DNA of 64,000 nt from positions 87,973 through 151,972 of IMG/VR virus record IMGVR_UViG_3300020220_000008. One strand, 5' to 3'. Shown piece after piece: positions 7,901 to 64,000 of the stretch. The first letter of the stretch is position 1, and every line of letters starts with the position of its first letter. The notes beneath the pieces were generated by a model. That model did not search any database and was not told the origin of the DNA. It was given only the letters and a program-made list of their open reading frames with translations. The position numbers and the translations under genes were made by a program. Source of the stretch: a virus.

Positions 7901-8743
7901 TCAACAGATATAAGTAGAATCTTGCATTACACCATTAAGAATTAAAAATACGTTATAACTTCCACCCTGCCACATAACAAAATAACCCGTATCTTCCGTA
8001 GAAAAACAAGTTTTGTCATTTGAATACAGAAGGTCTCCAACGATCAATTGCTGACTATTAGTATATCTGTCATAGTATCCATTTACACTATCAGTCCCTG
8101 CTTCCAAACCATTGAGGGCTAAACAGGCTAATATGGTGTTATTTCGGAAGTCACCAAAATTTGTTGTACTATAAACAAGTTGATTATAAAACTGATGTAC
8201 ACAAACAGGTTGATTCGGTGTCTGTGTGGGAGTTGGGGTTAAAGTTGGTGTCGGAGTAACAGTCATGGTTGGTGTAACACTTATTTCTGGTTCATTAGTT
8301 GGTGTGGGTGTTGGTGTTGGAAATGGGGTTGTACAACAACTATACTCTAAAGTATAACAAGGATTATAAAGGATATCAATCGAGTTAAAACTTTCAACAA
8401 CATTTATATATAGATTTTCTCTAACAGGTAGCACTAAAGTTCCCGTTTCATTAATAAAAACAAATTGACCCTCATACCTACCTATTTTCGAAGTGTCTTG
8501 AGGCGTAAATTTGTAATATATATAAAACTCGGCCGAAGCATTAGGATCCATTTCTAACTTTTCTACAAAACCAGCACTTTTAGTTAAAATTTTTGGAATT
8601 CCATTTTCGGTACTCACCATTGAAAAAAAAACAGATGAGGTTTCAATAAATTTCATCATAGAATCAAAATCTTGCGTCCCGTTTTTGACAACTTGCATTT
8701 TGAGTAAAGGTAAACTTGTATTTTGTCCTATTGTGAATTCCAT
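7901..8743 (-). CDS. Virion adhesin-like protein with BppU-like N-terminal domain and Pro-Thr linker
   Basis: The start at 8743 (EFTIGQNTSLPLLK) is chosen over the longer frame from 8821 because it aligns with the start of the neighbouring paralogue at 9821 and has a TATTTATT motif 12 nt before it. Residues 1-115 form a beta-rich domain, with GRYEGQFVF and NETGTLVLPV conserved in the paralogue, resembling the baseplate upper protein (BppU) N-terminal fold. Then comes a Pro-Thr-rich linker (many PTPT repeats) and a C-terminal domain of about 90 residues with three Cys, probably the variable receptor- or glycan-binding part. Role in adsorption is inference. Confidence 0.65.
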   Translation of the reverse strand: MEFTIGQNTSLPLLKMQVVKNGTQDFDSMMKFIETSSVFFSMVSTENGIPKILTKSAGFVEKLEMDPNASAEFYIYYKFTPQDTSKIGRYEGQFVFINETGTLVLPVRENLYINVVESFNSIDILYNPCYTLEYSCCTTPFPTPTPTPTNEPEISVTPTMTVTPTPTLTPTPTQTPNQPVCVHQFYNQLVYSTTNFGDFRNNTILACLALNGLEAGTDSVNGYYDRYTNSQQLIVGDLLYSNDKTCFSTEDTGYFVMWQGGSYNVFLILNGVMQDSTYIC

Positions 8744-8755
8744 CCGAACTTTTTT

Positions 8756-8763
8756 AATAAATA
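8756..8763 (-). promoter_or_regulatory. TATTTATT motif, candidate late promoter element
   Basis: Minus-strand TATTTATT, 12 nt before the chosen ATG at 8743. It supports that start and lies in the short gap after the 8781-9821 gene. Confidence 0.42.
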
Positions 8764-8780
8764 CCTTGTTTTTAATTTCA

Positions 8781-9821
8781 CTAAGGACAAATACCCCCCA
8801 CACAATTGTTAATTCCACCACTTACTGAGATGAAATCGTAATGTTGAGTAAATGCACCACAAAACGTTTGAGAACCGTTGAAAGGTAACGTTATAGCAAC
8901 AGTATTTCCACTACAATTTACGTAGATAGAATTAAGTACATTGTTTTGTGTTTTTGTGTATGTGAAGCATTTACAACCAAATGGAGATCCACATTGGTGA
9001 GAATTTATTACTTGACTATAATTACCAAACATACCACTGTACTGACCGACGTATACGATGGTGTTTGGTAAAAACGGAACCCCATTTCTTTTCAATACTC
9101 TAAACCAAGCACCATTCGTAGCAAATGAGTATGTGTCAAAATTGGGTGTTGCCCAAAGGGTTTGACTAATTGTTAATGCAGACATTACGGGTGTATATGC
9201 CGTTACATATTCATCACTTTCTGAGCAAGCAAGGTTTGAGTTGCCAGACCCAAAAGCTATAACCCACTCTGTGTATCCAGTTGGTTGTGGGCCATTAGTT
9301 GTTGTGGTTGTTGTCACAGGCATTAATGTAGTTGTTGTGGTAATTGGTGATACTGTGGTCGTAGTTGTTGTTACTGGAGGTATTGGTGGTTGTGGTGTTA
9401 ATCCACCAAAACAACACGGATAATCTACAACATAACAAGACTGAAATTCAAAATCGTTGATTACAAAACTTTCAGTAACATTAATATATATTTCTTGATT
9501 GATAGGTAGTGTTAAAATACCTGTTTCATTCCGAAACAAAAACTGACCTTTGTATCTTCCAACTTTTTTTGTGTCGAACGGTGTAAATTGATAATAAACA
9601 TAATATTGATCTTCAGTTATTAAATCCACAGGTTCTTTTTTCATAAATCCTGCTGGCCTCGAGACTATTCTTGGAACATCAGTTGTGATATCAACCATAG
9701 AAAAAAATACGTCAGTGCCCTCCAAAAACCTCATCGATCTGTTGTAGTCATTTCTTCCATCCTTGATAACATTAATCTTCAACACAGGAAGTGTTGCGTT
9801 TTTTCTGATAAAAAATTCCAT
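8781..9821 (-). CDS. Virion adhesin-like protein with BppU-like N-terminal domain and poly-Thr linker
   Basis: Paralogue of the 7901 gene. Both begin with an MEF...N...LP.LK pattern, then share FFSMV, PAGF and a GRYKGQF/NETG block over the first 115 residues. The linker here is a mucin-like run of Thr tracts separated by Pro, Val and Ser. The C-terminal domain (about 170 residues) contains several Cys, including FGCKCF and a terminal NCVGGICP, and ends in a Gly-rich tail. The ATG at 9821 is preferred over the TTG one codon earlier. A TATTTATA motif lies 13 nt upstream. The dense Thr makes the linker a possible O-glycosylation target. Confidence 0.65.
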   Translation of the reverse strand: MEFFIRKNATLPVLKINVIKDGRNDYNRSMRFLEGTDVFFSMVDITTDVPRIVSRPAGFMKKEPVDLITEDQYYVYYQFTPFDTKKVGRYKGQFLFRNETGILTLPINQEIYINVTESFVINDFEFQSCYVVDYPCCFGGLTPQPPIPPVTTTTTTVSPITTTTTLMPVTTTTTTNGPQPTGYTEWVIAFGSGNSNLACSESDEYVTAYTPVMSALTISQTLWATPNFDTYSFATNGAWFRVLKRNGVPFLPNTIVYVGQYSGMFGNYSQVINSHQCGSPFGCKCFTYTKTQNNVLNSIYVNCSGNTVAITLPFNGSQTFCGAFTQHYDFISVSGGINNCVGGICP

Positions 9822-9834
9822 CAAATCTTTTAAC

Positions 9835-9842
9835 TATAAATA
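9835..9842 (-). promoter_or_regulatory. TATTTATA motif, candidate late promoter element
   Basis: Exact TATTTATA on the minus strand, 13 nt before the ATG at 9821. Confidence 0.45.
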
Positions 9843-9848
9843 CTCCAA

Positions 9849-11516
9849 TTAAAATTCTTTTCTTAAATTAGATTCATAGAAATCAAACCTGTTGTGTTCG
9901 GTTGGAGTTAAAAGTAAGAGGCCTGGATATATTTTATTTTTAATTGTTTGTTTAAAACAATGAGACATTAAAGTTTGTTCATATGGAAAATCAAATTTGG
10001 TTTCAATATAACATTTATAATTTCCCTCTTTGGACAAAATAATGGGCCAATTTGATAAATAAATTTCTCCAGTAGCATATGCTAACCCATCATAAGATTT
10101 TATATTTTTATATTCTAAATATGGTGAGTTTGCCGACTGACCGTGTTTAGGTAGTTGTTGATTGTTAGGCCAATGTTTTGATCTGAAATCTTGATCAACA
10201 TTATACCATGACCATTGTCTTTCATGACTTCCATAAAACTCTGTAAAGTTTAATTTTAAAAAATCAAAATTTTCTTTTTTTATAATTTGTAAAAGTTTTT
10301 TATACAGATGTCTAACATTTCTATTAAAACCATTTTTACAAACCGATTCACCACCAGTGTAAAAAAACATGTCATCTTCAAAAAACAAATAATATTCCAT
10401 ATCTGAGTTTTCGAAATGTTCGGCCACCCAAACTCTACCCCCCGTTATACCTATATTATCTGTTTTTATGTGTTCGAATCCATATCTATCACAAAGATCA
10501 ATATACTTAGAGGTTGTTGAGTAATCTGTTGAGTTATTTAGAAGAAATTTATTAGTCTTTTCGATAAAATCTGAATCATATAATAACATTGAGTTTATTA
10601 ACGCTTCGAATTGTTTGGGGCTGTTGAAACTTATAATATATAAACCAACTTGACCATTAGTAATAGTCTTTATTATTCGTTCTTTCTTAAGTGATTTAAT
10701 TGTTATATTATTGTTTTTTAAATCTTCAAAAAATTTATATAAAAGACCATTGGGTTCAATTTCAACATAATCAATTATTGTTGGGTTGTTGTATAATAAT
10801 ATTGAGAACAAACTTTCTTCAGTCCCCATCAATCCTCTTTCAATCGTGGATTTCATAAGATTATAATAAAGAGTATTCATTTGTCTAATCAGACTGACGG
10901 GACCACCAAAAAAACCACCACGACAGACTTTATTGACTCTTGTACCTGTGATCTGATCCATTTTTTCAATATCAAACCCATGAATTTCTTTATCTGCCTG
11001 ATAAGGAAAGCAAACAAACGTAAAGTTATCAAAAAGACTTTCTATTTTTGGTAATACCTTGTCATGCGTTAAATAACCCATTTGAACGGTATTTGCCAAT
11101 CCAGCATCTATCCAATACAATTTTTCTGAATTAAATTTATCAAGCAAAACGGCGTCATGTAAAATAAACATTTTAGACATTACAATAGGGTTATACATTT
11201 CAAGTTTCGCTTGAGTTGAATCCTTTAACCAACCTGCTAAATTATACCACGTAGGATTCGTTCTTATTTTTTGAATTGAATTAAAAAATTCATTATTTTT
11301 GAACCAATTTAGATCACGCAAAATAAATTGCGTGTTTGAATCATTTCTTTTTTCCATAACAAATTTCTGAAGTTCTACATCTCCAAAAATTATCATATTA
11401 TTATCAACCTTTAGAAGTTGTTCGAATTTACTTAAATAGTGGTCAAAAGATCTTGACCAATTTTCAGATAAGTTTCCTCTACCTATATCCCATAAACCTG
11501 TTACTAATGTTATCAT
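9849..11516 (-). CDS. Two-domain glycosyltransferase (HtrL/WlaTC-like plus second GT domain)
   Basis: A 555-residue protein. The first half opens with ITLVTGLWDIGRGNL and contains QFILRDLNWF and LYWIDAGLA, which match the HtrL/YibB (WlaTC) family of lipooligosaccharide glycosyltransferases. The second half, from about residue 285, has VGLYIISFNSPKQFEALINS, then YYLFFEDDMFFY, an acidic EDD motif expected for metal and nucleotide-sugar binding in a GT-A fold. It is the last of three glycosyltransferases on this strand; its ATG overlaps the stop of the gene before it (TAATG). Acceptor unknown; the surrounding fibre genes suggest virion proteins or host surface glycan. Confidence 0.75.
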   Translation of the reverse strand: MITLVTGLWDIGRGNLSENWSRSFDHYLSKFEQLLKVDNNMIIFGDVELQKFVMEKRNDSNTQFILRDLNWFKNNEFFNSIQKIRTNPTWYNLAGWLKDSTQAKLEMYNPIVMSKMFILHDAVLLDKFNSEKLYWIDAGLANTVQMGYLTHDKVLPKIESLFDNFTFVCFPYQADKEIHGFDIEKMDQITGTRVNKVCRGGFFGGPVSLIRQMNTLYYNLMKSTIERGLMGTEESLFSILLYNNPTIIDYVEIEPNGLLYKFFEDLKNNNITIKSLKKERIIKTITNGQVGLYIISFNSPKQFEALINSMLLYDSDFIEKTNKFLLNNSTDYSTTSKYIDLCDRYGFEHIKTDNIGITGGRVWVAEHFENSDMEYYLFFEDDMFFYTGGESVCKNGFNRNVRHLYKKLLQIIKKENFDFLKLNFTEFYGSHERQWSWYNVDQDFRSKHWPNNQQLPKHGQSANSPYLEYKNIKSYDGLAYATGEIYLSNWPIILSKEGNYKCYIETKFDFPYEQTLMSHCFKQTIKNKIYPGLLLLTPTEHNRFDFYESNLRKEF

Positions 11517-12271
11517 TATCTTTCTAAATAACCAGTTTTATACCAAGTTTTTGAGTTGTCGTCAACACCTTCGTTTCTAAACCAAAAACAACCACCTCTA
11601 TCATTTGGTAAATGACCTACAATAGGGAAGGATTCAACCCTAGCTCTAAAATCATTATCTTTATTATAATTCATCACAATTTTTTGTATGTTATGTTTTC
11701 CAAGATAAGCAGATAAAACTATATCATCACTCCAAGATTTACCAACAAATTCATCAAAAAAATCTTGTTTAAAAAAACCATTTTTATATGACACTGTTTT
11801 ATATCCTTCTAAAATTTTAACTCTTGTATCTTTTTGAACTGTTGTACAAAAATGACAACTACCATCAAAAGAAGATATACCAGCAAACCCTAACGCAGAA
11901 TCTGGATATTCTTTTCTTTTTTCAATATGGTATTCTATAAAACCATCGATATATTCTAGATCATCATCAACTGTTATTAAAATTGTATCATCATTCCTAT
12001 CTAATCTCATTATGGTTGGTAATATTTTTGTTAAAGACCCATAATCTTCAGTTCTAAAAATCTTTAATTTTTCATCTTTAATTGATTCTAACCATTTAGG
12101 TATTACATATTTTTCATTTGATTTTTTACAAATATCTGGAATATTCAAATGGATTTCATAGTTGTTATATGATAAACCCAACAATCTTTCAATAACTGGT
12201 TTTAACCCACCGACAGATCTATTTATTCTGTTTGGTATTGTTGTTAGTGTTAGTATTACTTTTTGATTCAT
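11516..12271 (-). CDS. Glycosyltransferase, GT-A type
   Basis: The start at 12271 (NQKVILTLTTIPNR) is preferred over the longer frame because it falls 4 nt after the stop of the upstream gene and places the typical GT opening LTLTTIPNRI at the N-terminus. ILITVDDDLEY (about residues 95-105) supplies the DXD-type metal motif. Later SDDIVLSAYLGKH resembles the acceptor-side block of bacterial glycosyltransferases. About 251 residues. It sits in a tight three-gene unit, with 1-base overlap to the next gene. Confidence 0.75.
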   Translation of the reverse strand: MNQKVILTLTTIPNRINRSVGGLKPVIERLLGLSYNNYEIHLNIPDICKKSNEKYVIPKWLESIKDEKLKIFRTEDYGSLTKILPTIMRLDRNDDTILITVDDDLEYIDGFIEYHIEKRKEYPDSALGFAGISSFDGSCHFCTTVQKDTRVKILEGYKTVSYKNGFFKQDFFDEFVGKSWSDDIVLSAYLGKHNIQKIVMNYNKDNDFRARVESFPIVGHLPNDRGGCFWFRNEGVDDNSKTWYKTGYLER

Positions 12272-12275
12272 TAAA

Positions 12276-13520
12276 TTATAAATTTCCAACAATCCTTTCA
12301 CACCAATCTTTTGAAATTGAGTGAGGCCAAACAACCCAATAGGAAGGTATTTTTGTCGTTGGGAATTCTCTCCATATTTTACCATAACCATCAGGATCAT
12401 TTTTAATTCTTACAATTTCATTTGCGTCGGCATCTTGTCTAAAAATTGTTTCATGTTCTTTATCGTGAAATGCCACGACCCAAAAGTCATAATCGGTTTC
12501 GGTAACTTTATTTAAATCCAAATCAATACAATGTTTAAAAATTGTTGAAAATGTTTTTTTCCATGATTCCTCGTTTTCAAAATTGTACGTGTTTGGTGGA
12601 TATTTTTTATCCAAAGTTTCTTGTTGAACCGCTCTTGTTCTGAATAATATTCCTGCGTATTTTTCATAGTCTTGTACAGTCCTTTCAGACCCAAACCATA
12701 ATGAATAATTACCATCAAAAGTTTCACCATCTATACCTAATAACTGTCTGTTTTTAATGTGACAAGCAGTGTTTCTCAAATGCCAATCTTTATCATCATC
12801 CCATTGTTTTGTTCTACCTTTTCTTGTGTATTCATGCCAAATCAAAACTTTATGTGGATGAAATAAGTCATAACCATGTGTATATGATCTTACCGTAATT
12901 GAAATTTCCTCACCATGAAAATAAAATTCAGGATCGTGTTGGACTTCAATTGAAAATTGTCCTATCGTGAAACAATAGTGTGCGGAATAAAATCTAGCAG
13001 GAATAGGTTCTTTCATTTCCCTCCATCCTGGTATAATTTCGGGTAAAAAGAATACAACTCCTTCAGGTGTAAATCTATCGAATACCATTCTCCACGGTTC
13101 CATAATGCGAGCGGCGGGATCATTATCAGGATCAAATGATGATACATATCCTGTAAGTAATGGTTTTTTATGCCCTTTCTTTTGAAGTTGTTTAATCATT
13201 TTAATCATTTCTTCGTCCCAATTTTTTTCGAATCTCATATGAGAATCAATTTGTAAAGTATATTCTTCTCCACCATACATTTGTTGGACTTGGTGTCTAG
13301 CCCAACAAACACCTTTCGATTCCGTATATGGAATGTTTAATATTTTGAATCTTTTGTCTTTGGAATATTTTGATAAATCATCAAAACCATCTTCAGGATG
13401 AAATTGTCTTGCAATACCGAATCTAAGATTTCTTGGTTTTTTTGCATTTTCCAACATGTTTTCAATTGTTTGGATCAATTGTGGGTCTCTGTACGACGCG
13501 ATTTGTACAAATATTTTCAT
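12276..13520 (-). CDS. GlcNAc-type glycosyltransferase (Skp1 GlcNAc-transferase-like, GT60-like)
   Basis: A 414-residue protein. It has the signature of the GlcNAc glycosyltransferase family (Pfam GlcNAc, which includes Dictyostelium Skp1 GlcNAc-transferase): IFVQIASYRDPQLIQTIENM, FGIARQ, SKGVCWARHQVQQMYGGE and LQIDSHMRFEKNWDEEM, where DSH is the metal-binding DXD equivalent. Members add GlcNAc to hydroxyls of protein or glycan, and the Skp1 enzyme glycosylates a protein. First gene of the minus-strand glycosyltransferase trio. Acceptor specificity cannot be read from sequence. Confidence 0.85.
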   Translation of the reverse strand: MKIFVQIASYRDPQLIQTIENMLENAKKPRNLRFGIARQFHPEDGFDDLSKYSKDKRFKILNIPYTESKGVCWARHQVQQMYGGEEYTLQIDSHMRFEKNWDEEMIKMIKQLQKKGHKKPLLTGYVSSFDPDNDPAARIMEPWRMVFDRFTPEGVVFFLPEIIPGWREMKEPIPARFYSAHYCFTIGQFSIEVQHDPEFYFHGEEISITVRSYTHGYDLFHPHKVLIWHEYTRKGRTKQWDDDKDWHLRNTACHIKNRQLLGIDGETFDGNYSLWFGSERTVQDYEKYAGILFRTRAVQQETLDKKYPPNTYNFENEESWKKTFSTIFKHCIDLDLNKVTETDYDFWVVAFHDKEHETIFRQDADANEIVRIKNDPDGYGKIWREFPTTKIPSYWVVWPHSISKDWCERIVGNL

Positions 13521-24339: not shown

Positions 24340-25326
24340 ATGAAAAAAGTTTGTTTGGATTTATCTCAATCAAGAGCTCTTGGTGATACATTATGTTCAA
24401 CACCAACGATTAGAAAATTATATAATTCTTATAATCAAAAAATTTCCATTATAACTCACCACAAAGAAATTTTTAAAAACAATCCATATGTTGATGTTAT
24501 TTTCGATGTTGATGTGGAAAATCTAACAGATGAGTATGAAATTTTTAATTCCTTTGATGTTTTTTATAAACCAAATGGTGTTTGTAATAAACATAATGTT
24601 ATGGATATACGACAATTTCATGCAATTAATCTTGGGTTCATGTTAACAAAAAATGAAATGACCTTAGATTATATTCCATCACAAACTTCAATTATGAAAG
24701 AAATTCCAAGAAAATATGTTTTAATTCATCCCGTACAGAATTGGAATTCAAGAACTTGGTCAATTGATAATTGGAGGGTACTAACAAAATTATTAAACGA
24801 GCAAAATATAAATGTGGTTTCAATTGGAAAAAATTCATCTGAGTTTGGAGGTTCAAATGTGGAAAAACATGTTTTTGATTTTGATATTGATTTGGGGGTT
24901 AATTTAATGAACAAAACAACTTTAGATGAAACATGGAACTTGATTGAATATTCATTGTGTTTTGTTACAATGGACTCAGGACTTTTACATTTGGCAGGAA
25001 CAACCGATGCTCAAATAATTCAACTTGGAAGTTCAATAAACTATGAATTTAGAGCTCCTTATAGAAATGGTTCACAAGATTACAAATATTCTTACGTTGG
25101 TGGTGGTTGTAATTTGGCATGTGCTTCTGATATGAAACATGGGGTAAAAGAATGGGGGTCAATTCAAGGGATACCCCCACTTGTTAATTGTTTAGAAAAT
25201 AAAAAATCATTTGAATGTCATCCTACGGTATTACAGGTATATAGAAAAATAATGGAATTACTGCAGTCTGTATTTATAATATATGGCAACATTCAAGACA
25301 TGAATTTTTTTCAAGTCAAAGTTTAA
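24340..25326 (+). CDS. GT9 heptosyltransferase-like glycosyltransferase
   Basis: A 328-residue protein of the ADP-heptose:LPS heptosyltransferase family. SRALGDTLCSTPTIRKLY at the N-terminus is the GT9 acceptor-side opening; VLIHPVQNWNSRTWSIDNW and CFVTMDSGLLHLAGTTDA (about residues 128-147 and 208-225) form the donor side. ATG at 24340 is chosen over the GTG one codon earlier. The last 18 residues (after the QVYRKIMELL block) differ from the remnant at 13886 and read through DNA of a broken GT4 gene, so the native C-terminus was probably altered by a rearrangement. Divergent from the GT4-BAHT-FkbM gene. Confidence 0.82.
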   Translation: MKKVCLDLSQSRALGDTLCSTPTIRKLYNSYNQKISIITHHKEIFKNNPYVDVIFDVDVENLTDEYEIFNSFDVFYKPNGVCNKHNVMDIRQFHAINLGFMLTKNEMTLDYIPSQTSIMKEIPRKYVLIHPVQNWNSRTWSIDNWRVLTKLLNEQNINVVSIGKNSSEFGGSNVEKHVFDFDIDLGVNLMNKTTLDETWNLIEYSLCFVTMDSGLLHLAGTTDAQIIQLGSSINYEFRAPYRNGSQDYKYSYVGGGCNLACASDMKHGVKEWGSIQGIPPLVNCLENKKSFECHPTVLQVYRKIMELLQSVFIIYGNIQDMNFFQVKV

Positions 25327-25897
25327 TTTTTCTTTGGTTTGAATTTTTTTAAGTATTGATGGTTTTTTGTTTTCAATTGGGTATTGAAGAACTTTTTTAT
25401 AAACTTTTTCTAATTCGAACGTTTTTAAATGATATGGAGTTACAAACAAATATGAGTCAGGACGAAATTTTCTGTTTTTTGGATCAAACCAAATGTTATG
25501 ACATGTCTCAACAATCTTCCAAGTTCTTTTGTTATCATATAACTCGGTAAGAATACTAATTGGAATTTGATTGAAACTTTCAAACCCTTCAGAAATTTCT
25601 TCAATGTGAACAATATCAATTTGATTTTTTTTTATGATATCAACTAACTTATTTTTTTTTTTCGATATGGTTTGGTGTTCCCAAAGAATAAAAATTATCT
25701 TCACCGATTAGGTCTATTATTTTATTTCTTTGGACAACATATTGATTACCAAAATAAGAATATTCAACAACGTTTACTTTAAAATTATTATATAAAGATT
25801 GAATTCTTTTCAATGCAAATTGGGGCATCCCACCTGTTGATAAGTGAGGAACAACGTATAATATATTAATTTTTATCGATAGAAAATTTTGTTTCAT
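25285..25897 (-). pseudogene. Truncated and frameshifted GT4 duplicate
   Basis: The reading from 25897 (ILYVVPHLSTGGMPQF) is a close copy of residues 1-75 of the 981-residue fusion. It stops in an 11-A run (minus strand, 25652-25662) just after NHIEKKK. With 10 A the frame would continue into the second part, DIIKKNQIDIVHIEE to LKKIHVLNVA, which matches residues 80-217 of the fusion. Homology ends near 25285, where the convergent GT9 gene begins to overlap. The rest of the GT4 and the BAHT and FkbM parts are absent. Either a dead copy or, less likely, a slippage-controlled short protein. Confidence 0.8.
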
Positions 25898-30005: not shown

Positions 30006-30290
30006 ATGCAAACAGAAAGATTAGATTTTAGCCAACCACCAAATGACTTAACGGCAATTGCCGATCTTCAAAGAAAAAGTTTGATTGTAAAAAATGATTA
30101 CAAAACAGATAACCCTTATTCTGCGGTAAATCCTGACGCCCTTTCCGATGGAGATGAATCAGGTAAAGGTACAGGAATTTTCTTAGATACGGTCAATGGA
30201 GGTTCTTCTATTGATATTATCGAAAGAAAAAATGAAATTAAAATAAACGAATATCAACCAGACAAACCCTACACTACTCCATCGGCTTAA
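30006..30290 (+). CDS. Small hypothetical protein
   Basis: A 94-residue, polar, probably unstructured protein (QTERLDFSQPPNDLTA opening). It starts one base after the preceding stop and overlaps the next start by 1 nt (TAATG), so it is in one operon with its neighbours. No family recognised. Confidence 0.5.
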   Translation: MQTERLDFSQPPNDLTAIADLQRKSLIVKNDYKTDNPYSAVNPDALSDGDESGKGTGIFLDTVNGGSSIDIIERKNEIKINEYQPDKPYTTPSA

Positions 30291-30670
30291 TGAAACTTTA
30301 CAAAACATTAAATAATCTTATTTTAGAAATAGCATCAAAAAATCAAATTGTTGACGCTATTAAAAATAAACAAGTGTGCGTAATTTATTATAACGGTGAT
30401 GAACCAGGTGGAAAAGGTCTAAGAGTTATTGAACCTGTTGCATTTGGATTGAGTAAAAAAGGAAACCCCGTGTTAAGAGCTTGGGATAGAGAAGGAGCTT
30501 CTCACAGAGGTTATTTGGGTAAAAAACCATTACCAAGTTGGAGGTTTTTCAGGGTTGATAAAATGGAATTTATTAGACCAACTCAAGAAACTTTCGATAC
30601 TCCAAGACCTAATTACAATTCATCAGGAGATAAAAGTATGTCGAGACTAATTATAAACGCGGTATTTTAA
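30290..30670 (+). CDS. WYL-like small protein with possible capsid-targeting N-terminus
   Basis: A 126-residue protein. The core has VCVIYYNGDEPGGKGLRVIE, GNPVLRAWDREGASHRGY and SWRFFRVDKMEFI, a pattern shared with WYL-type ligand-binding domains seen in many phage small proteins. The N-terminus KLYKTLNNLILE followed by IAS resembles T4 capsid-targeting peptides, ending with an (I/L)-X-E site (ILE). It could thus be an internal capsid protein cleaved after residue 13. WYL-type recognition moderate, packaging is inference. Confidence 0.55.
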   Translation: MKLYKTLNNLILEIASKNQIVDAIKNKQVCVIYYNGDEPGGKGLRVIEPVAFGLSKKGNPVLRAWDREGASHRGYLGKKPLPSWRFFRVDKMEFIRPTQETFDTPRPNYNSSGDKSMSRLIINAVF

Positions 30671-58345: not shown

Positions 58346-58804
58346 ATGAAAAATTTAAATTATATTATTAGAAAAGTTTTATTAGAAACACACGACGAAC
58401 AACATTCCTCGAGATATATGTTTTTTTCCAATTTGGAACAAATGAGAAGACAATGTGATCTATTATTAGATTTGGATCAAAACATGATTGACGAAATTTT
58501 AGAAAACGGTCATGATTGGGCTCAAGATCACGTCAGTGAAGCAAAAAACAACATGGATCAAGTTTTTGATTTTTTGATGAATCAGACCAATTCAGAACAC
58601 CATGAAGACAATATGTATGACGATATGATGATGGAAGGTAGGAAAAAAACTGGAACAAAATTATGTGCTAGAGGTATTGCATCTGCCAAAGCAAAATACG
58701 ACGTATATCCAAGCGCATATTCAAATGGTCACGCTGTCCAAGTCTGTAAAGGGAAAATTAAAGGACTTGACGGAAAAAGAAGGTGTTCAGGAGCGTTTTG
58801 TTAA
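58346..58804 (+). CDS. Probable capsid-internal protein with targeting peptide
   Basis: A 152-residue protein; ATG at 58346 is preferred to the start at 58262 because it gives KNLNYIIRKVLLE, nearly the same as the N-terminus of the gene at 58966. The peptide ends with an (I/L)-X-E site (LLE, then THDEQ), as in T4 capsid-targeting sequences. The C-terminus has AKAKYDVYPSAYSNGHAVQV followed by CKGKI, a motif common in phage virion proteins (DUF5872-like). The middle is acidic and Met-rich. Co-packaging and cleavage are inference. Confidence 0.6.
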   Translation: MKNLNYIIRKVLLETHDEQHSSRYMFFSNLEQMRRQCDLLLDLDQNMIDEILENGHDWAQDHVSEAKNNMDQVFDFLMNQTNSEHHEDNMYDDMMMEGRKKTGTKLCARGIASAKAKYDVYPSAYSNGHAVQVCKGKIKGLDGKRRCSGAFC

Positions 58805-58806
58805 TG

Positions 58807-58835
58807 AACTAATCCTAATTAGTTTTATTTTATAT
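58807..58835 (+). terminator. Weak AT-rich hairpin, possible terminator
   Basis: AACTAAT, loop CCTA, ATTAGTT and then TTATTTTAT, directly after the stop at 58804. The stem has only A/T and one G/C pair, so strength is doubtful. The rest of 58836-58965 has no visible gene. Confidence 0.45.
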
Positions 58836-58965
58836 TCATTTCGATATTTGTAGAACAAACATAAACTACAAATAAATGAAAAAAGAAGAAACAAAAGTGA
58901 AATCGAAGTAAAAACAATATAAAAAATTCTTTGGATTATATTTTAAAAAAAAAATTAATTCTAAT

Positions 58966-59733
58966 CTAAGAAGATTTAAGTTTTTGAATAATTGACAGTA
59001 CCGTGGTATCTTCTTTTATATTCTTTTTTGGTTTATAAGAAGTCATCACAGGTTTTTGTCCTTTACCTTGTTGTGGATCTTTTTTTTCGGCTCTTCTTTT
59101 TTGAGCACAAGCACTCCTTTTTTGTGAGTCAGACATTTTACCAGCAACTCCCGCAGCTCTACACTTAGGATAAGAACCCTTAGAAGTATCACTTCGTCCA
59201 CAGGGAGGATGCTTACCGTCGACTTTACGACAAATATCTACCCAAGGACCACTTGGTTGAGAAGATCCTTTGGGTTTCTTCTTTTTACCAAACCATACGG
59301 CCAAATCTTCGTTTATTAAACCTTTGTCTGAAACTTCCACCCACTCATTAAAAGGGACCTTTTCTATAAATGGCGCCAATTTCCTATTATGATCAGGACT
59401 TTTACCATCATACATAAATTGATTCACAGGGTTTCCATCTTGATCTGAAAAGGTTGAGTAAGGGTGGGATTTGATGTAATTCTGTATTTTTGAAGCGACT
59501 TTTTCCAACTCTATAATTTGATCTTTTTTTAGGTCAAACTTGTGGTCATAACTATCATATTGGACAAGTGGGCTTTTGAAATTAGATACAGACTTGTCAA
59601 ATGGTCCCAAACTCGATTTTTTCCATGGTCTAAGACCTGGTTGCACGGGAGGTATATAACTTCCCCGACTTCCCGTAGCGTCACTCGTCGCCTCTCTAAT
59701 TACCTTAGATATAATTTTATTTAGATTTTTCAT
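58966..59733 (-). CDS. Probable capsid-internal protein (DUF6321-like C-terminal block)
   Basis: A 255-residue basic protein. It opens KNLNKIISKVIREATSD. The segment IRE then ATSD repeats the probable cleavage site of the major capsid protein (INE then ATSD), and the opening matches the 58346 gene. The C-terminal half has GPWVDICRKVDGKHPPCGRS and KGSYPKCRAAGVAGKMSDSQ, characteristic of phage DUF6321-like proteins, then Lys/Arg-rich tails that could bind DNA. Strongly suggests an internal head protein matured by the prohead protease. TATTTATA lies 11 nt before the ATG. Confidence 0.65.
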   Translation of the reverse strand: MKNLNKIISKVIREATSDATGSRGSYIPPVQPGLRPWKKSSLGPFDKSVSNFKSPLVQYDSYDHKFDLKKDQIIELEKVASKIQNYIKSHPYSTFSDQDGNPVNQFMYDGKSPDHNRKLAPFIEKVPFNEWVEVSDKGLINEDLAVWFGKKKKPKGSSQPSGPWVDICRKVDGKHPPCGRSDTSKGSYPKCRAAGVAGKMSDSQKRSACAQKRRAEKKDPQQGKGQKPVMTSYKPKKNIKEDTTVLSIIQKLKSS

Positions 59734-59744
59734 TGAATAACATT

Positions 59745-59752
59745 TATAAATA
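59745..59752 (-). promoter_or_regulatory. TATTTATA motif in a divergent, palindromic context
   Basis: Minus-strand TATTTATA, 11 nt before the ATG at 59733. It is part of ATTTATAAAT, so it may also serve the plus-strand gene at 59769. Confidence 0.42.
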
Positions 59753-59768
59753 TCTTATAATTATAAAT

Positions 59769-59981
59769 ATGAATGAAGAAAAAGAAATTTATGGTAACCT
59801 TTTTGGGTCAATAGAACTTTTGAGTGAGGAACATTTAGAGGCAATTTTAGTGTCTATGGATAAGGATTTAGCAAATTATTATATAATTGAATCTGTTAAA
59901 TTGGCCTACAGGAAAGGGGTTTATACAATTGGTGAAACAGAAGTTATTTCTAAAGCAATTAGAACTATGTTAAGACAATAA
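59769..59981 (+). CDS. Small hypothetical protein
   Basis: A 70-residue helical, acidic protein (NEEKEIYGNLFGSIELLSEE; ESVKLAYRKGVYTIGETE). The start at 59769 is chosen over the longer frame from 59733, which would overlap the divergent start. Its last 12 bases overlap the HNH gene's end on the opposite strand. Function unknown. Confidence 0.5.
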   Translation: MNEEKEIYGNLFGSIELLSEEHLEAILVSMDKDLANYYIIESVKLAYRKGVYTIGETEVISKAIRTMLRQ

Positions 59982-60653
59982 TTTATTTGATTTTTTAATA
60001 TTGTCAACACCCCACATAGGTTGTAAATTACCTAATGACCAACAATTCATAAACGCTTCATCGCCTATTTCTAAAATCATAAACGATGAAATGGGTTTAA
60101 CGTGGTCAACGTGCCATTCACCGTAGTTATCCCACGACATATTTTCACTGAATCTATCTTCCAAATGAGATATAAGTTGCTCGGGAGTATATTTTAGAAT
60201 GTCAAAATAATGTCCGTTTTTATTTATGTCGTTTTCTTTAAGAACTTGATAAATAGCAGTTCTGAAATTGTTTATTAATTTATAGAGGGGGTCTCTTGAT
60301 TTACGATTTCTTTCGTAATTTCTTTTATTTTCCCTATGTCTTTCAATATTTTTTTTTCTCCATTTTTGATGATACTCATTAAGATGTTCTCTATTTTTTT
60401 CAGACCATTTTTTGTAATAAATTAATTTCTTTTCTTTGTGTTTTTGGTAGTTTCTTTTATCAGATGCACTTTTACCCCCTTTATATTTTCTTCCAGATGA
60501 CCCAATCTTAACATTATTTTCTTTTAAAATTCTTAACACTATATGTTTTTTTATATCTAATTTTTCAGATATAGAAGGACTACCCAAATATTCTTCATTA
60601 TAAAGTCTTATAATTTCACATTCTAAATCCTTATCAATAATTATTTTTTTCAT
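59970..60653 (-). CDS. Free-standing HNH homing-type endonuclease
   Basis: A 227-residue protein. An N-terminal helix-turn-helix-like region (LYNEEYLGSPSISEKLDIKK) is followed by a basic, helical DNA-binding linker and an HNH core WHVDHVKPISSF, with NCWSLGNLQPMWGVDNIKK completing the family pattern. Such genes insert next to conserved phage genes; this one sits just after the major capsid gene, separated by a terminator, with its own TATTTATA element. Confidence 0.85.
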   Translation of the reverse strand: MKKIIIDKDLECEIIRLYNEEYLGSPSISEKLDIKKHIVLRILKENNVKIGSSGRKYKGGKSASDKRNYQKHKEKKLIYYKKWSEKNREHLNEYHQKWRKKNIERHRENKRNYERNRKSRDPLYKLINNFRTAIYQVLKENDINKNGHYFDILKYTPEQLISHLEDRFSENMSWDNYGEWHVDHVKPISSFMILEIGDEAFMNCWSLGNLQPMWGVDNIKKSNKLLS

Positions 60654-60657
60654 ATAA

Positions 60658-60665
60658 TATAAATA
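60658..60665 (-). promoter_or_regulatory. TATTTATA motif before the HNH gene
   Basis: Minus-strand TATTTATA, 4 nt before the ATG at 60653. Confidence 0.38.
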
Positions 60666-60690
60666 TAACGTAGAACCTATTATTATAAAT

Positions 60691-60721
60691 AAAAAAAGGT
60701 CAGATTTCTCTGACCTTTTTT
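60691..60721 (-). terminator. Strong terminator after the major capsid gene
   Basis: GGTCAGA, four-base loop, TCTGACC, flanked by A and T tracts on both sides, so it can act in either direction. It lies 20 nt after the capsid stop on the minus strand and separates capsid from HNH transcription. Confidence 0.9.
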
Positions 60722-60740
60722 CTTATAAAACTTTAATTGA

Positions 60741-62678
60741 TTATCTCAATTCTCTCAAATCGAATGTTCTAACACCATCCACGGTAATTCTCCCGTAGAA
60801 TCTGTTGTTCACCATCTTCTTCGCGTATCTGGTCATAATACCTTTGATTGGCGTAAAGTTGAATGGGTTATACATTGTAGGTGTTAATTGTAGAGGAACA
60901 TACGGTGCGTAAATGTAACCTGTGTCTAATAATGAAGTTCCTTTGTGTCCGATCAAAACTTGGTTTGGTGGGAAGTAAGGATCACGATAAACTTGGTAAC
61001 GTCCTGAAAGTGTACCTACTCTTTCAATACCCATGTTGTATTGGTCTTGCTCAGGAGCCGCGTTAGATACGTGGAAGTATTCTAAATCGTCAAAGATAGC
61101 AGAAACCTCAGATGATACAACAATCCAGTTAGCTCCACCTCTCAAAGTAGATTTGTGGATTTGTGCTGACAATTGGTTGATTGCAGTAATCATAGTTTGG
61201 TTCCAATCTTTCTGAGTATAAGAAACTTGGTTGTTGATTCTTCTCCATCCGTTGTAGTCCCAACGTAACTGCCATGCCGCTCCTTTTCTCAAGTCACGTA
61301 AGATTTCACGGTCAATTTCAGCTGCAACTTGCTCTGATAACAAAGCCGTCAATTCGGCCTCAGCATCAATGTTGTGGAATGCAGCAACGTCTTGTGCTAA
61401 CTCAGGTGACCACTGTGCTCTTAGTTTTCTTTCTGTAACAGATACAGTTACTGACTCAAGGTCAAAAGAAACCTCACCAATTTGATCTTCAAATTCCAAA
61501 TTGGCATATCTTCTATACCATGCGGTAAATGAAGATGCTGATGATCCTGATGAGATTGTTGTCCCTGTATATCCGTCTAACGAAGTCGCATCACAATCAG
61601 CACATACAGGACAAGATAAATCAACCTCTAACCAAATACAACCATTTTCATCACAAATGTCATTATAGTTACCACCATTACCACCGTTAGATGGACTGTT
61701 TGGATAACCTGACGCATTTGTGAACACAGTTGCTGCGTTGCTACCATATTTTACAATACCTTTACCATAGATTTGAGTTACAACTCTAAATAATAGAGGA
61801 GCGTAAACTGTGGATCCATTATAAGTAGTTGTTGTTACACTACAAGGTGTTGTTGCTGCTGAGAAACCATTAGCCGCGTAAATTCTAAGGTCAGAAAGGA
61901 ATGACTCAGTGTCCATTTCGTTACCATCAGGACCGATAAGTTTTCCAGCTCCTGAATTCATGAAACCACAAAGTTTAACGATAACTTTTCTATAGTTACC
62001 TGCTGGAATAATTTCACCAGCACCAATGTTAGCGTTTACTAACTCAGAACCGGCCCATGCTTGAACTAACGTAGTTGCAGTGACCGCAGTCCACTTACCT
62101 TTAGAGTAGTCAAATAATCCAGGAGGATCTAATGACGCTTCGTTGCCTTCGTAAAATAAATCGTAAAGATTTTTTTTGTAGTAGTAATCATTGGTAGGAT
62201 ATCCTTGGCTAGGATTGTTCAAATTGGCATTAACCGCTTCTGGTGAACCGATTGGTGCGTAATGATCACCACCCGCTGTTGCGTTAGATGGTGAGGAATT
62301 TGGATAAAGGTTTGCATACGTAGAACTAAGATTTTGATATCCTTGAATACGTGGTACAAAGTAGAACAATTTACCAATAGGTAAATTCATTGCTTGTACT
62401 GATACGATGTCGTTAGCTAACAATTTAGAAAATACACGTCTTACAATCGGGAAAACAACTGTTTCGAATGCTCCATTTGAAGTTCCGTCAGAAGTTGCTT
62501 CGTTGATTAAAAAAGATGCTTGATTTTCGTATAATTGTGCTACGTTTTCTTTTAGGTGACCTCTTAGGCCATCTAAAAAACCTAATTTGTCCCATTTGTT
62601 AATTGTGTCTTCTTTGATAACTTTAAGGTGTTTTAACCCGATGTTACCAACAAGACCTGATTCTAATAAAGCTCCCAT
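60741..62678 (-). CDS. Major capsid protein, T4 gp23-like
   Basis: A 645-residue protein, longer than T4 gp23 (521). The N-terminal 60 residues form the delta region; YENQASFLINE followed by ATSDGTSNG gives a (I/L)-X-E cleavage site after Glu60, comparable with gp23 cleavage after Glu65. PIVRRVFSKLLANDIVSVQA and MNLPIGKLFYFVPRIQGYQ match the gp23 core, and FTPIKGIMTRYAKKMVNNRF the C-terminus. A middle insertion has a Cys cluster (ICDENGC, CPVCADCD). It follows the scaffold-like gene, as gene 23 follows gene 22 in T4. Confidence 0.92.
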   Translation of the reverse strand: MGALLESGLVGNIGLKHLKVIKEDTINKWDKLGFLDGLRGHLKENVAQLYENQASFLINEATSDGTSNGAFETVVFPIVRRVFSKLLANDIVSVQAMNLPIGKLFYFVPRIQGYQNLSSTYANLYPNSSPSNATAGGDHYAPIGSPEAVNANLNNPSQGYPTNDYYYKKNLYDLFYEGNEASLDPPGLFDYSKGKWTAVTATTLVQAWAGSELVNANIGAGEIIPAGNYRKVIVKLCGFMNSGAGKLIGPDGNEMDTESFLSDLRIYAANGFSAATTPCSVTTTTYNGSTVYAPLLFRVVTQIYGKGIVKYGSNAATVFTNASGYPNSPSNGGNGGNYNDICDENGCIWLEVDLSCPVCADCDATSLDGYTGTTISSGSSASSFTAWYRRYANLEFEDQIGEVSFDLESVTVSVTERKLRAQWSPELAQDVAAFHNIDAEAELTALLSEQVAAEIDREILRDLRKGAAWQLRWDYNGWRRINNQVSYTQKDWNQTMITAINQLSAQIHKSTLRGGANWIVVSSEVSAIFDDLEYFHVSNAAPEQDQYNMGIERVGTLSGRYQVYRDPYFPPNQVLIGHKGTSLLDTGYIYAPYVPLQLTPTMYNPFNFTPIKGIMTRYAKKMVNNRFYGRITVDGVRTFDLRELR

Positions 62679-62707: not shown

Positions 62708-64000
62708 TTATTTTATTTTTAACATCAAATCCTTCATTCTTAAAAATTGAGGATTCTCATACGTTTTTGACTCAATTAAGTTTACTGCTGAACCTGTTTC
62801 AACAGATTTATTTACAGTTCTTTCAATTGATTCGGTTAATTTTTGTTCTGAACCTGAACTTACTGAAGATGACAATTCATTTTTAATAGTTCGGTAAAGA
62901 TTTTTAGATTCTTTCAAAGATTCAACATTATCAAATCTTCTTAGAATATTTATTTTTTCTTGTTTAGTTGTTGAGTGTTCAGTGAACAAACGAGTTGCAT
63001 AAGCTAAATTTGAATTAAAAACCGCAACTTCATTGATTTTGGTTCTGAAAACGTCTAAAGCTTTTTTATACTCGTTATTTTTTTCTTTTAACATTTCAAC
63101 TTCTTCATTTATTCTTGTGTGCGGTCTTACTCTGATTTCTTTTCTGTTAACATTTTGATCAGAACCTTTTCTGTTTCCAACTTTATTGGCTCTGGTGTAA
63201 CTATTAGTTCGTACGGCTTCTTTAGTTTCCATTTTTCTAACATTCTTGAAATCACCATTCGTTTCGTCCTTATATTCAAATTTTGCTTTACCTGTTCCCA
63301 TGGCTTTAGTTCCTTTTCCAAAAGCTTCTTTTCTTTTTTCATTAAACCCTCCGCTCATGTTAGGTTTTTTACCATATGCAAATTTAGGACCACGACCAAT
63401 ACCGACACCTTTATTTTTGATTGATTTTTTGGTTTTTTCAACGGCTTCAGCGATTGCATTTTCTAAGTCATCTCCTTCGAATTCATAAACTTTTTCTTCA
63501 CTTCCGTAACCATCTTCTTCTTCAAGACCAATTCCGCCCATCATAGCACCTTTTGCGGCACCAGCCCAAGACCAACCTTCATTATATTCATGTTCAGGCT
63601 CGCTATCTATATCTTCGCCCAATTTATAATCGGATTCGTCATATATGTTCTTACCAAACTTGCTTGAAGTGTCCCCATCCATTTCTATTTCATATATTAC
63701 TTCATTCATTTTTCTTTCTGATTCTCTTAGTCGTATCATATATTCGTTATCACCGTCTTCAAGGTGTAACATTTCACCTTCTTTTTTTATAACGATTCCA
63801 TCATCATCTCCCATTGCTTTGAAAACTTTTAAGACTTCAGCGTCAGAAGCTCCTCTCATATCGATAGTTTCTCCTTCATCATCCATTTCCATGTCTTCAT
63901 CATCCATTTCCATGTCTTCATCATCCATTTCCATGTCTTCATCATCCATTTCCATGTCTTCATCATCCATTTCCATGTCTTCATCATCCATTTCCATGTC
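62708..64000 (-). CDS. Prohead core/scaffold-like protein, N-terminus outside the window
   Basis: Partial gene; the frame is open through the window end. The visible part begins with acidic heptads (EMDDEDM repeated), then more acidic and Gly-rich sequence, a Lys-rich middle and a helical C-terminal 130 residues (EVEMLKEKNNEYKKALDVFR, SSSVSSGSEQKLTESIERTV). Helical acidic composition, place just before the capsid gene, and LTE and LIE sites that a gp21-type protease would cut match T4 gp22-like core proteins. Family assignment is by context and composition. Confidence 0.65.
   Translation of the reverse strand, partial: DMEMDDEDMEMDDEDMEMDDEDMEMDDEDMEMDDEDMEMDDEGETIDMRGASDAEVLKVFKAMGDDDGIVIKKEGEMLHLEDGDNEYMIRLRESERKMNEVIYEIEMDGDTSSKFGKNIYDESDYKLGEDIDSEPEHEYNEGWSWAGAAKGAMMGGIGLEEEDGYGSEEKVYEFEGDDLENAIAEAVEKTKKSIKNKGVGIGRGPKFAYGKKPNMSGGFNEKRKEAFGKGTKAMGTGKAKFEYKDETNGDFKNVRKMETKEAVRTNSYTRANKVGNRKGSDQNVNRKEIRVRPHTRINEEVEMLKEKNNEYKKALDVFRTKINEVAVFNSNLAYATRLFTEHSTTKQEKINILRRFDNVESLKESKNLYRTIKNELSSSVSSGSEQKLTESIERTVNKSVETGSAVNLIESKTYENPQFLRMKDLMLKIK
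63886..64000 (-). repeat. 21-bp tandem repeat encoding EMDDEDM heptads
   Basis: More than five nearly perfect copies of CATCATCCATTTCCATGTCTT (plus-strand reading; 21 bases, two halves CATCATCCAT and TTCCATGTCTT), continuing past the window edge. It gives the acidic N-terminal part of the scaffold-like protein. Confidence 0.9.

Follow-up and report, generated by a model that had tools for sequence, protein, structure and literature searches.

The DNA analysed here is a window of 64,000 nucleotides, corresponding to bases 87,973–151,972 of a 151,972-base virus contig (G000) that belongs to a T4-related lineage of large aquatic phages. A second contig (G010; 106,306 bases) overlaps it by 38,865 bases with 100% identity and prolongs it by 67.4 kb, which puts the size of this phage genome at 219 kb or more. 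The features relevant to this work are the following (coordinates are those of the window; all cuts are predicted):

30290..30328, plus strand: weak candidate leader MKLYKTLNNLILE, 13 codons, of the protein encoded at 30290–30670; PSSM score 0.5
58346..58387, plus strand: leader MKNLNYIIRKVLLE, 14 codons, cut after E14; PSSM score 20.7
58346..58804, plus strand: putative cargo protein 1, 152 aa, with homologs; phrog_27331 (4.1e-12)
58966..59733, minus strand (5′ end at 59733): putative cargo protein 2, 255 aa; phrog_23735 (2e-07); best 80 of 548 related loci
59692..59733, minus strand: leader MKNLNKIISKVIRE, 14 codons, cut before ATSD; PSSM score 20.6
60741..62678, minus strand: gp23-type major capsid protein (MCP), 645 aa; PF07068 (1.1e-72)
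62499..62678, minus strand: MCP propeptide, residues 1–60, ending in LINE; cut E60/A61
62708..64000, minus strand: scaffold gene (gp22 position), interrupted by the contig end and assigned from the gene order in six relatives

The open frame of the 58346 protein extends to 58262, whereas its homologs start at 58346. An endonuclease VII-like (HNH) gene (59970–60653) separates the capsid gene from the 59733 gene, and such genes are also found at the corresponding place in several related phages. In the interrupted scaffold sequence, MEMDDED is repeated in tandem where the contig ends. Elsewhere in the window, at 7901–13520 and 25258–25897, overlapping same-strand ORFs apparently represent split or frameshifted genes, which by eye are glycosyltransferase-like.

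Leaders as exchangeable N-terminal modules

An initial annotation had pointed to KNLN-type starts shared by the genes at 58346 (plus strand) and 59733 (minus strand). Both strings, MKNLNYIIRKVLLE and MKNLNKIISKVIRE-ATSD, are present, and the shared leader lies far above chance, as judged from an invariant E14 in homologs and from the excess of N-terminal matches over the controls given below. When 39 homologs of the 58346 protein carrying several leader types were aligned, E14 was the sole column without variation among residues 1–23 and the sole one ahead of the domain. The common domain (RYMFFSNLEQMRRQ...) is found behind starts as different as MKNLNRIIKKVLLE, MKKIINLTESDLNRIIKRVLNE, MKRVIRLNETDITNLVKRVLNE and MRITESQLNNLVKKIVTE, and in Prochlorococcus phage P-SCSP2 the C-terminal domain of this protein is encoded on its own by a gene of the head module. 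E14 is also invariant in the family of the 59733 protein (n = 32 homologs; pI of the protein 9.7 after the predicted cut), the preceding residue being variable. In a second cargo family, leader ends mostly differ (KLME, SISE, LLNE, IINE, VLKE, IVKE) and the mature part, AP(I/V), starts immediately behind the leader E; the P3 residue is lost in a few distant members. From these alignments, homologous cargo proteins exchange leader types, and the junction is the invariant E. In contig G005 (132815–133840), a leader-like motif (ENVIRITESELIQLILSELRK) is found at the C-terminal end of a homolog of the 59733 protein; T4 Alt is also cleaved at the C-terminus (PMC5694885).

For the protein at 30290, whose start had been described as similar, the string MKLYKTLNNLILE is confirmed and (I/L)xE is kept among homologs as ILE, IVE or INE, but the profile score of 0.5 does not assign it to the same leader type. 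We therefore regard it as a weak candidate, for which an origin by chance or composition is possible.

The proteome scan suggested by the initial annotation yielded many more N-termini of the leader form than had been seen before. In seven contigs (that of the window, G001–G005 and G010), 95 of 1546 proteins match, compared with 5 of 5174 Met sites inside proteins and a mean of 5.2 in shuffles; owing to the 38.9-kb overlap of G000 and G010, two of the 95 enter the count twice. As the leader form was picked after examples had been seen, it is the internal-Met and shuffle controls that bear the weight. A motif-free comparison of 1150 proteins gave 1891 pairs that are alike solely in their first 45 residues (signal-peptide-like starts are involved in 87 of them), whereas an internal stretch gave 59 such pairs and the C-terminal 45 residues gave 97. 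When applied to about 80 kb of T4, the same comparison returned four pairs, two of which were IPII–IPIII and IPI–IPIII, known capsid-targeted proteins. Given the same residue, codons of the leaders agree in 55.5% of cases versus 50.1% expected from codon usage; it is therefore the peptide and not the DNA that is conserved, synonymous codons being nearly randomised.

These figures bear on the alternative that the leaders reflect chance, AT-rich composition (which often places I, L, K and E close to the N-terminus) or 5′ DNA that was duplicated recently. The (I/L)xE end is indeed frequent by itself, [ILVM]xE being found within residues 9–45 of 59% of the proteins. The internal, shuffled and C-terminal controls, the codon data and a codon-reversed decoy pattern, which gave zero matches in viral contigs, nevertheless refute this origin for the main leader types, and we give it hardly any credence.

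Leader types and their common end

Clustering resolved about eight unrelated leader types, about 11–25 residues long and most of them ending in (I/L)xE. Examples are LTESDL..IVKRVIxE, MKIIITE.Q, MNLQE.IRKVLRE, MKELIRHILKE, MKNLN.IIKKVIxE, EEK.RIL.MH..AT...YLxE, LLES.LGNVKPL(I/L)xE, YKRG..ISE and SYSKIRHIQ. Figures for class I leaders come from 4–6 sequences, and no claim is based on types G or I. As in a T4-type capsid-targeting sequence (CTS), a short N-terminal leader (about 10–20 aa) that ends in (L/I)xE is common to otherwise unrelated proteins.

The commonest type comprises 182 distinct leaders that were selected without using the end. P1 is E in 97% of them, P3 is almost always I, L, V or M, no P2 residue exceeds 28%, and conservation collapses past the P1 E. 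The proteins behind these leaders fall into 127 BLAST groups. In five other types (7 to 20 sequences each), the [ILVM]xE end is found in 80–100% of the leaders, versus 1.7% expected per site. Comparison of the cargo with Pfam, PHROGs and the PDB assigned almost no function beyond one LysM-lysozyme. On contig L208 (6998–7879), a lysozyme plus LysM protein with a leader of the MKIVITENQ type is a possible ejected cell-wall enzyme.

The residue behind the commonest-type leaders is mostly Q, N, E, D or S, not A as at the capsid site; as the small P1′ residue is absent, cleavage is less certain for most of these leaders than for the 59733 protein and the MCP. Low-confidence models of both window proteins (pLDDT 67 and 46) predict one helix over residues 2–16, followed by a low-confidence stretch. 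Both the predicted helix and the variable residues behind E in most leader types would fit a leader that docks its protein to the prohead or to another part of the virion and stays attached, the final E lying within the helix. A free P2 between fixed P3 and P1 is, however, the form of a gp21 site, this end is all that unrelated leader types have in common, and the MCP has the same site; we hence regard docking without cleavage as unlikely.

The capsid protein site and the prohead protease

The MCP matches the gp23 family and carries an (L/I)xE site at about residues 60–65, as a T4-type gp23 with a propeptide does. The initial annotation had placed INE-ATSD at the expected cleavage site, and this stands: the protein reads ASFLINE-ATSD, A being residue 61, with a predicted cut after E60 (E65 in T4). 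Homologs of the MCP are present in at least 80 related loci of IMG/VR; among the relatives displayed, LINE/A is unchanged and the residues behind the site differ in kind and number. The same type of site is found in cultivated phages (IVSE/A in immuto, LISE/A in Mel-JY01, FLTE65/A in T4).

The identity of ATSD in the MCP and in the 59733 protein had been taken as meaningful. The strings are indeed identical, but the match is not informative, since 10 identical cases were found in 101 contigs where 14 were expected. Considered as a linked mark of capsid and internal protein, it was rejected, pairing within a phage being no better than shuffled. Both families favour A-(T/S)-(S/G)-(D/E) behind the site. 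By eye, the MCP start LLESGLVGNIGLKHLKVIKE (62610–62678) resembles the leader type RFKQLLES.LGNVKPL(I/L)xE.

The protease family PF03420 was found in 23 of 25 related records; one of the two without it is the window's own contig, which stops inside the scaffold gene. G010 carries the complete scaffold gene and, just upstream of it, a gene for a gp21-like protease (66028–66756 of G010). This protein matches the family of T4 gp21 (Peptidase_S77) and aligns with the solved T4 gp21 (5jbl) at 7e-15; the Ser, His and Asp residues are present, and the motifs of this catalytic triad are kept in six homologs. As for gp21, the protease gene is located upstream of the scaffold and capsid genes in the head block of six relatives. 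A conserved scaffold segment, EEI..LVKESL.EQ, weakly resembles leaders; the helix SLVKESLKEQ was considered as a leader source and proved suggestive only (scores up to 10).

When a DNA pattern of the commonest leader type was searched for, matches were found in many viral contigs and in two stretches among the genomes of 84,980 prokaryote species; one of these stretches is a true leader, the second encodes an unrelated protein. On a contig of a Bacteroidota MAG (L258, 2187–2224), a true-looking class A leader (MKKIIKLTESDLYRIVKKVISE) lies on a short ORF near an apparent DNA polymerase I gene (by eye), possibly a phage remnant or captured gene. Among the matches listed, 16 of 27 viral contigs with the pattern have the protease family, compared with 4 of 20 control contigs, which carry an arbitrary 15-base pattern and are shorter on average. 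Of the 11 contigs without protease, one has gp23 and two look truncated, as they share a tail sheath at 64–70% identity. Truncation or gp23 accounts for these three; the remainder count against the reading that we prefer. A tblastn search of phages with a 22-aa leader remained without matches up to E 10 and is uninformative, since such a query is too short.

As regards gene location, many leader genes are far from head genes, and leaders of the commonest type are amphipathic, with a median moment of 0.45 (background 0.15). Both facts would suit leaders that direct their proteins to a membrane, to the transcription or replication machinery or to an intracellular compartment rather than to the head, since basic amphipathic helices are able to bind membranes and other proteins. 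On the other hand, two leader genes adjoin the capsid gene in most of the relatives in which this region is present, in two relatives small leader-bearing genes separate the protease gene from the scaffold gene, the leader end fits the head protease motif and T4 provides a precedent. Targeting elsewhere is thus, in our view, very improbable.

Putative head-targeting propeptides and their precedents

Taking all this into account, we consider it probable that the N-terminal leaders are T4-like capsid-targeting propeptides, greatly expanded and present on dozens of unrelated proteins. The initial annotation had proposed one T4-like targeting peptide, cut at (I/L)xE and usable to find head-packaged proteins. 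The comparative evidence strongly favours the propeptide: leaders swap at an invariant E, their end agrees with the MCP site and the gp21 motif, and a gp21-family protease is encoded in the head operon; the single peptide, however, has to be replaced by about eight types. What the sequences provide is leaders that are shared and can be swapped, their (I/L)xE end, a matching MCP site and a protease gene with catalytic residues; scaffold binding, cleavage, presence in heads and ejection are what we infer. The leader, an amphipathic basic helix, would bind to the scaffold core while the prohead assembles and bring its protein inside. A gp21-type prohead protease would then cut behind (I/L)xE, a site type presumably also used for MCP maturation, and the freed cargo would remain in the head and be delivered with the DNA. 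In this lineage, such a module has been joined to numerous unrelated proteins of each genome, and leaders of other types have taken its place. Weighing against this reading, the tagged proteins per genome outnumber anything proven for T4.

T4, giant phages and P1 already provide examples of the principle of head-targeting leaders. The 10 residues at the start of T4 IPIII are a sufficient targeting signal for the prohead core, and gp21 cuts after L/I-X-E, the freed proteins being ejected with the DNA (PMC9026906, PMC7411985). The CTS has 10–20 residues (PMC9026906, PMC7411985, PMC5694885), and Alt is cut at ITE-6 (PMC5694885). T4 IPI–IPIII and Alt resemble the present case in having a short N-terminal leader on unrelated proteins, an (I/L)xE end and a gp21-family protease (PMC9026906), and gp23 is cut at the same kind of site. 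T4, however, uses one leader type (MKTYQEFIAE) on a handful of proteins, whereas here about eight types are found on many proteins and are swapped between homologs.

The giant Salmonella phage SPN3US and phiKZ-type phages are likewise large, and their head proteins have N-terminal propeptides cut after xxE, with identical N-termini on the diverged paralogs gp53 and gp54 (PMC5694885). Their motif is AXE and their propeptides mostly exceed 100 residues, compared with (I/L)xE and about 11–25 residues here. In phage P1, an N-terminal 30-residue signal of DarB is enough to carry a reporter into heads, but it is not presented as a shared, swappable family (PMC9024508) and P1 belongs to another capsid lineage. 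The Far-T4 phages and the cultivated relatives Flavobacterium phage immuto (which has gp21 and gp23), Microcystis phage Mel-JY01 and Rhodothermus phage RM378 are mostly aquatic, with a divergent gp23 and an (I/L/V)xE site at the same place of the MCP. A strict leader regex gave few matches in immuto and none of the LTESDL type; its leaders are of other types, and it has recurring ones of its own, e.g., MKKSQLRQIIKE and FDLKKFLVENKLT.NS. In the Far-T4 paper (PMC4360716), the words protease, cleav- and internal protein are all absent. Many unrelated, swappable leader types on many proteins of one lineage had no precedent in the literature searched, which is weak evidence given its incomplete coverage.

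A broader proposal is that of an open cargo-loading system, in which some eight leader families or more, each with its own evolutionary origin, end in one protease motif and an estimated tenth to quarter of the proteome is loaded and ejected; here we lean slightly towards doubt. Core-binding segments of the scaffold or the capsid protein may be the origin of some leaders. A leader module would account for first residues like MKK(I/V)IRLTESDL..IVKRV being common to many unrelated phage hypothetical proteins.

To our knowledge, the proteins that enter the cell with the DNA are not known for nearly all uncultivated large phages. Judged from their sequences, the leaders very probably mark which proteins go into the host with the DNA. 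The N-terminal rule has a very low false-positive rate, internal controls being near zero, and would give candidate ejected, early-acting proteins straight from metagenomes; the leaders could also serve as natural tags to load foreign proteins into phage heads.
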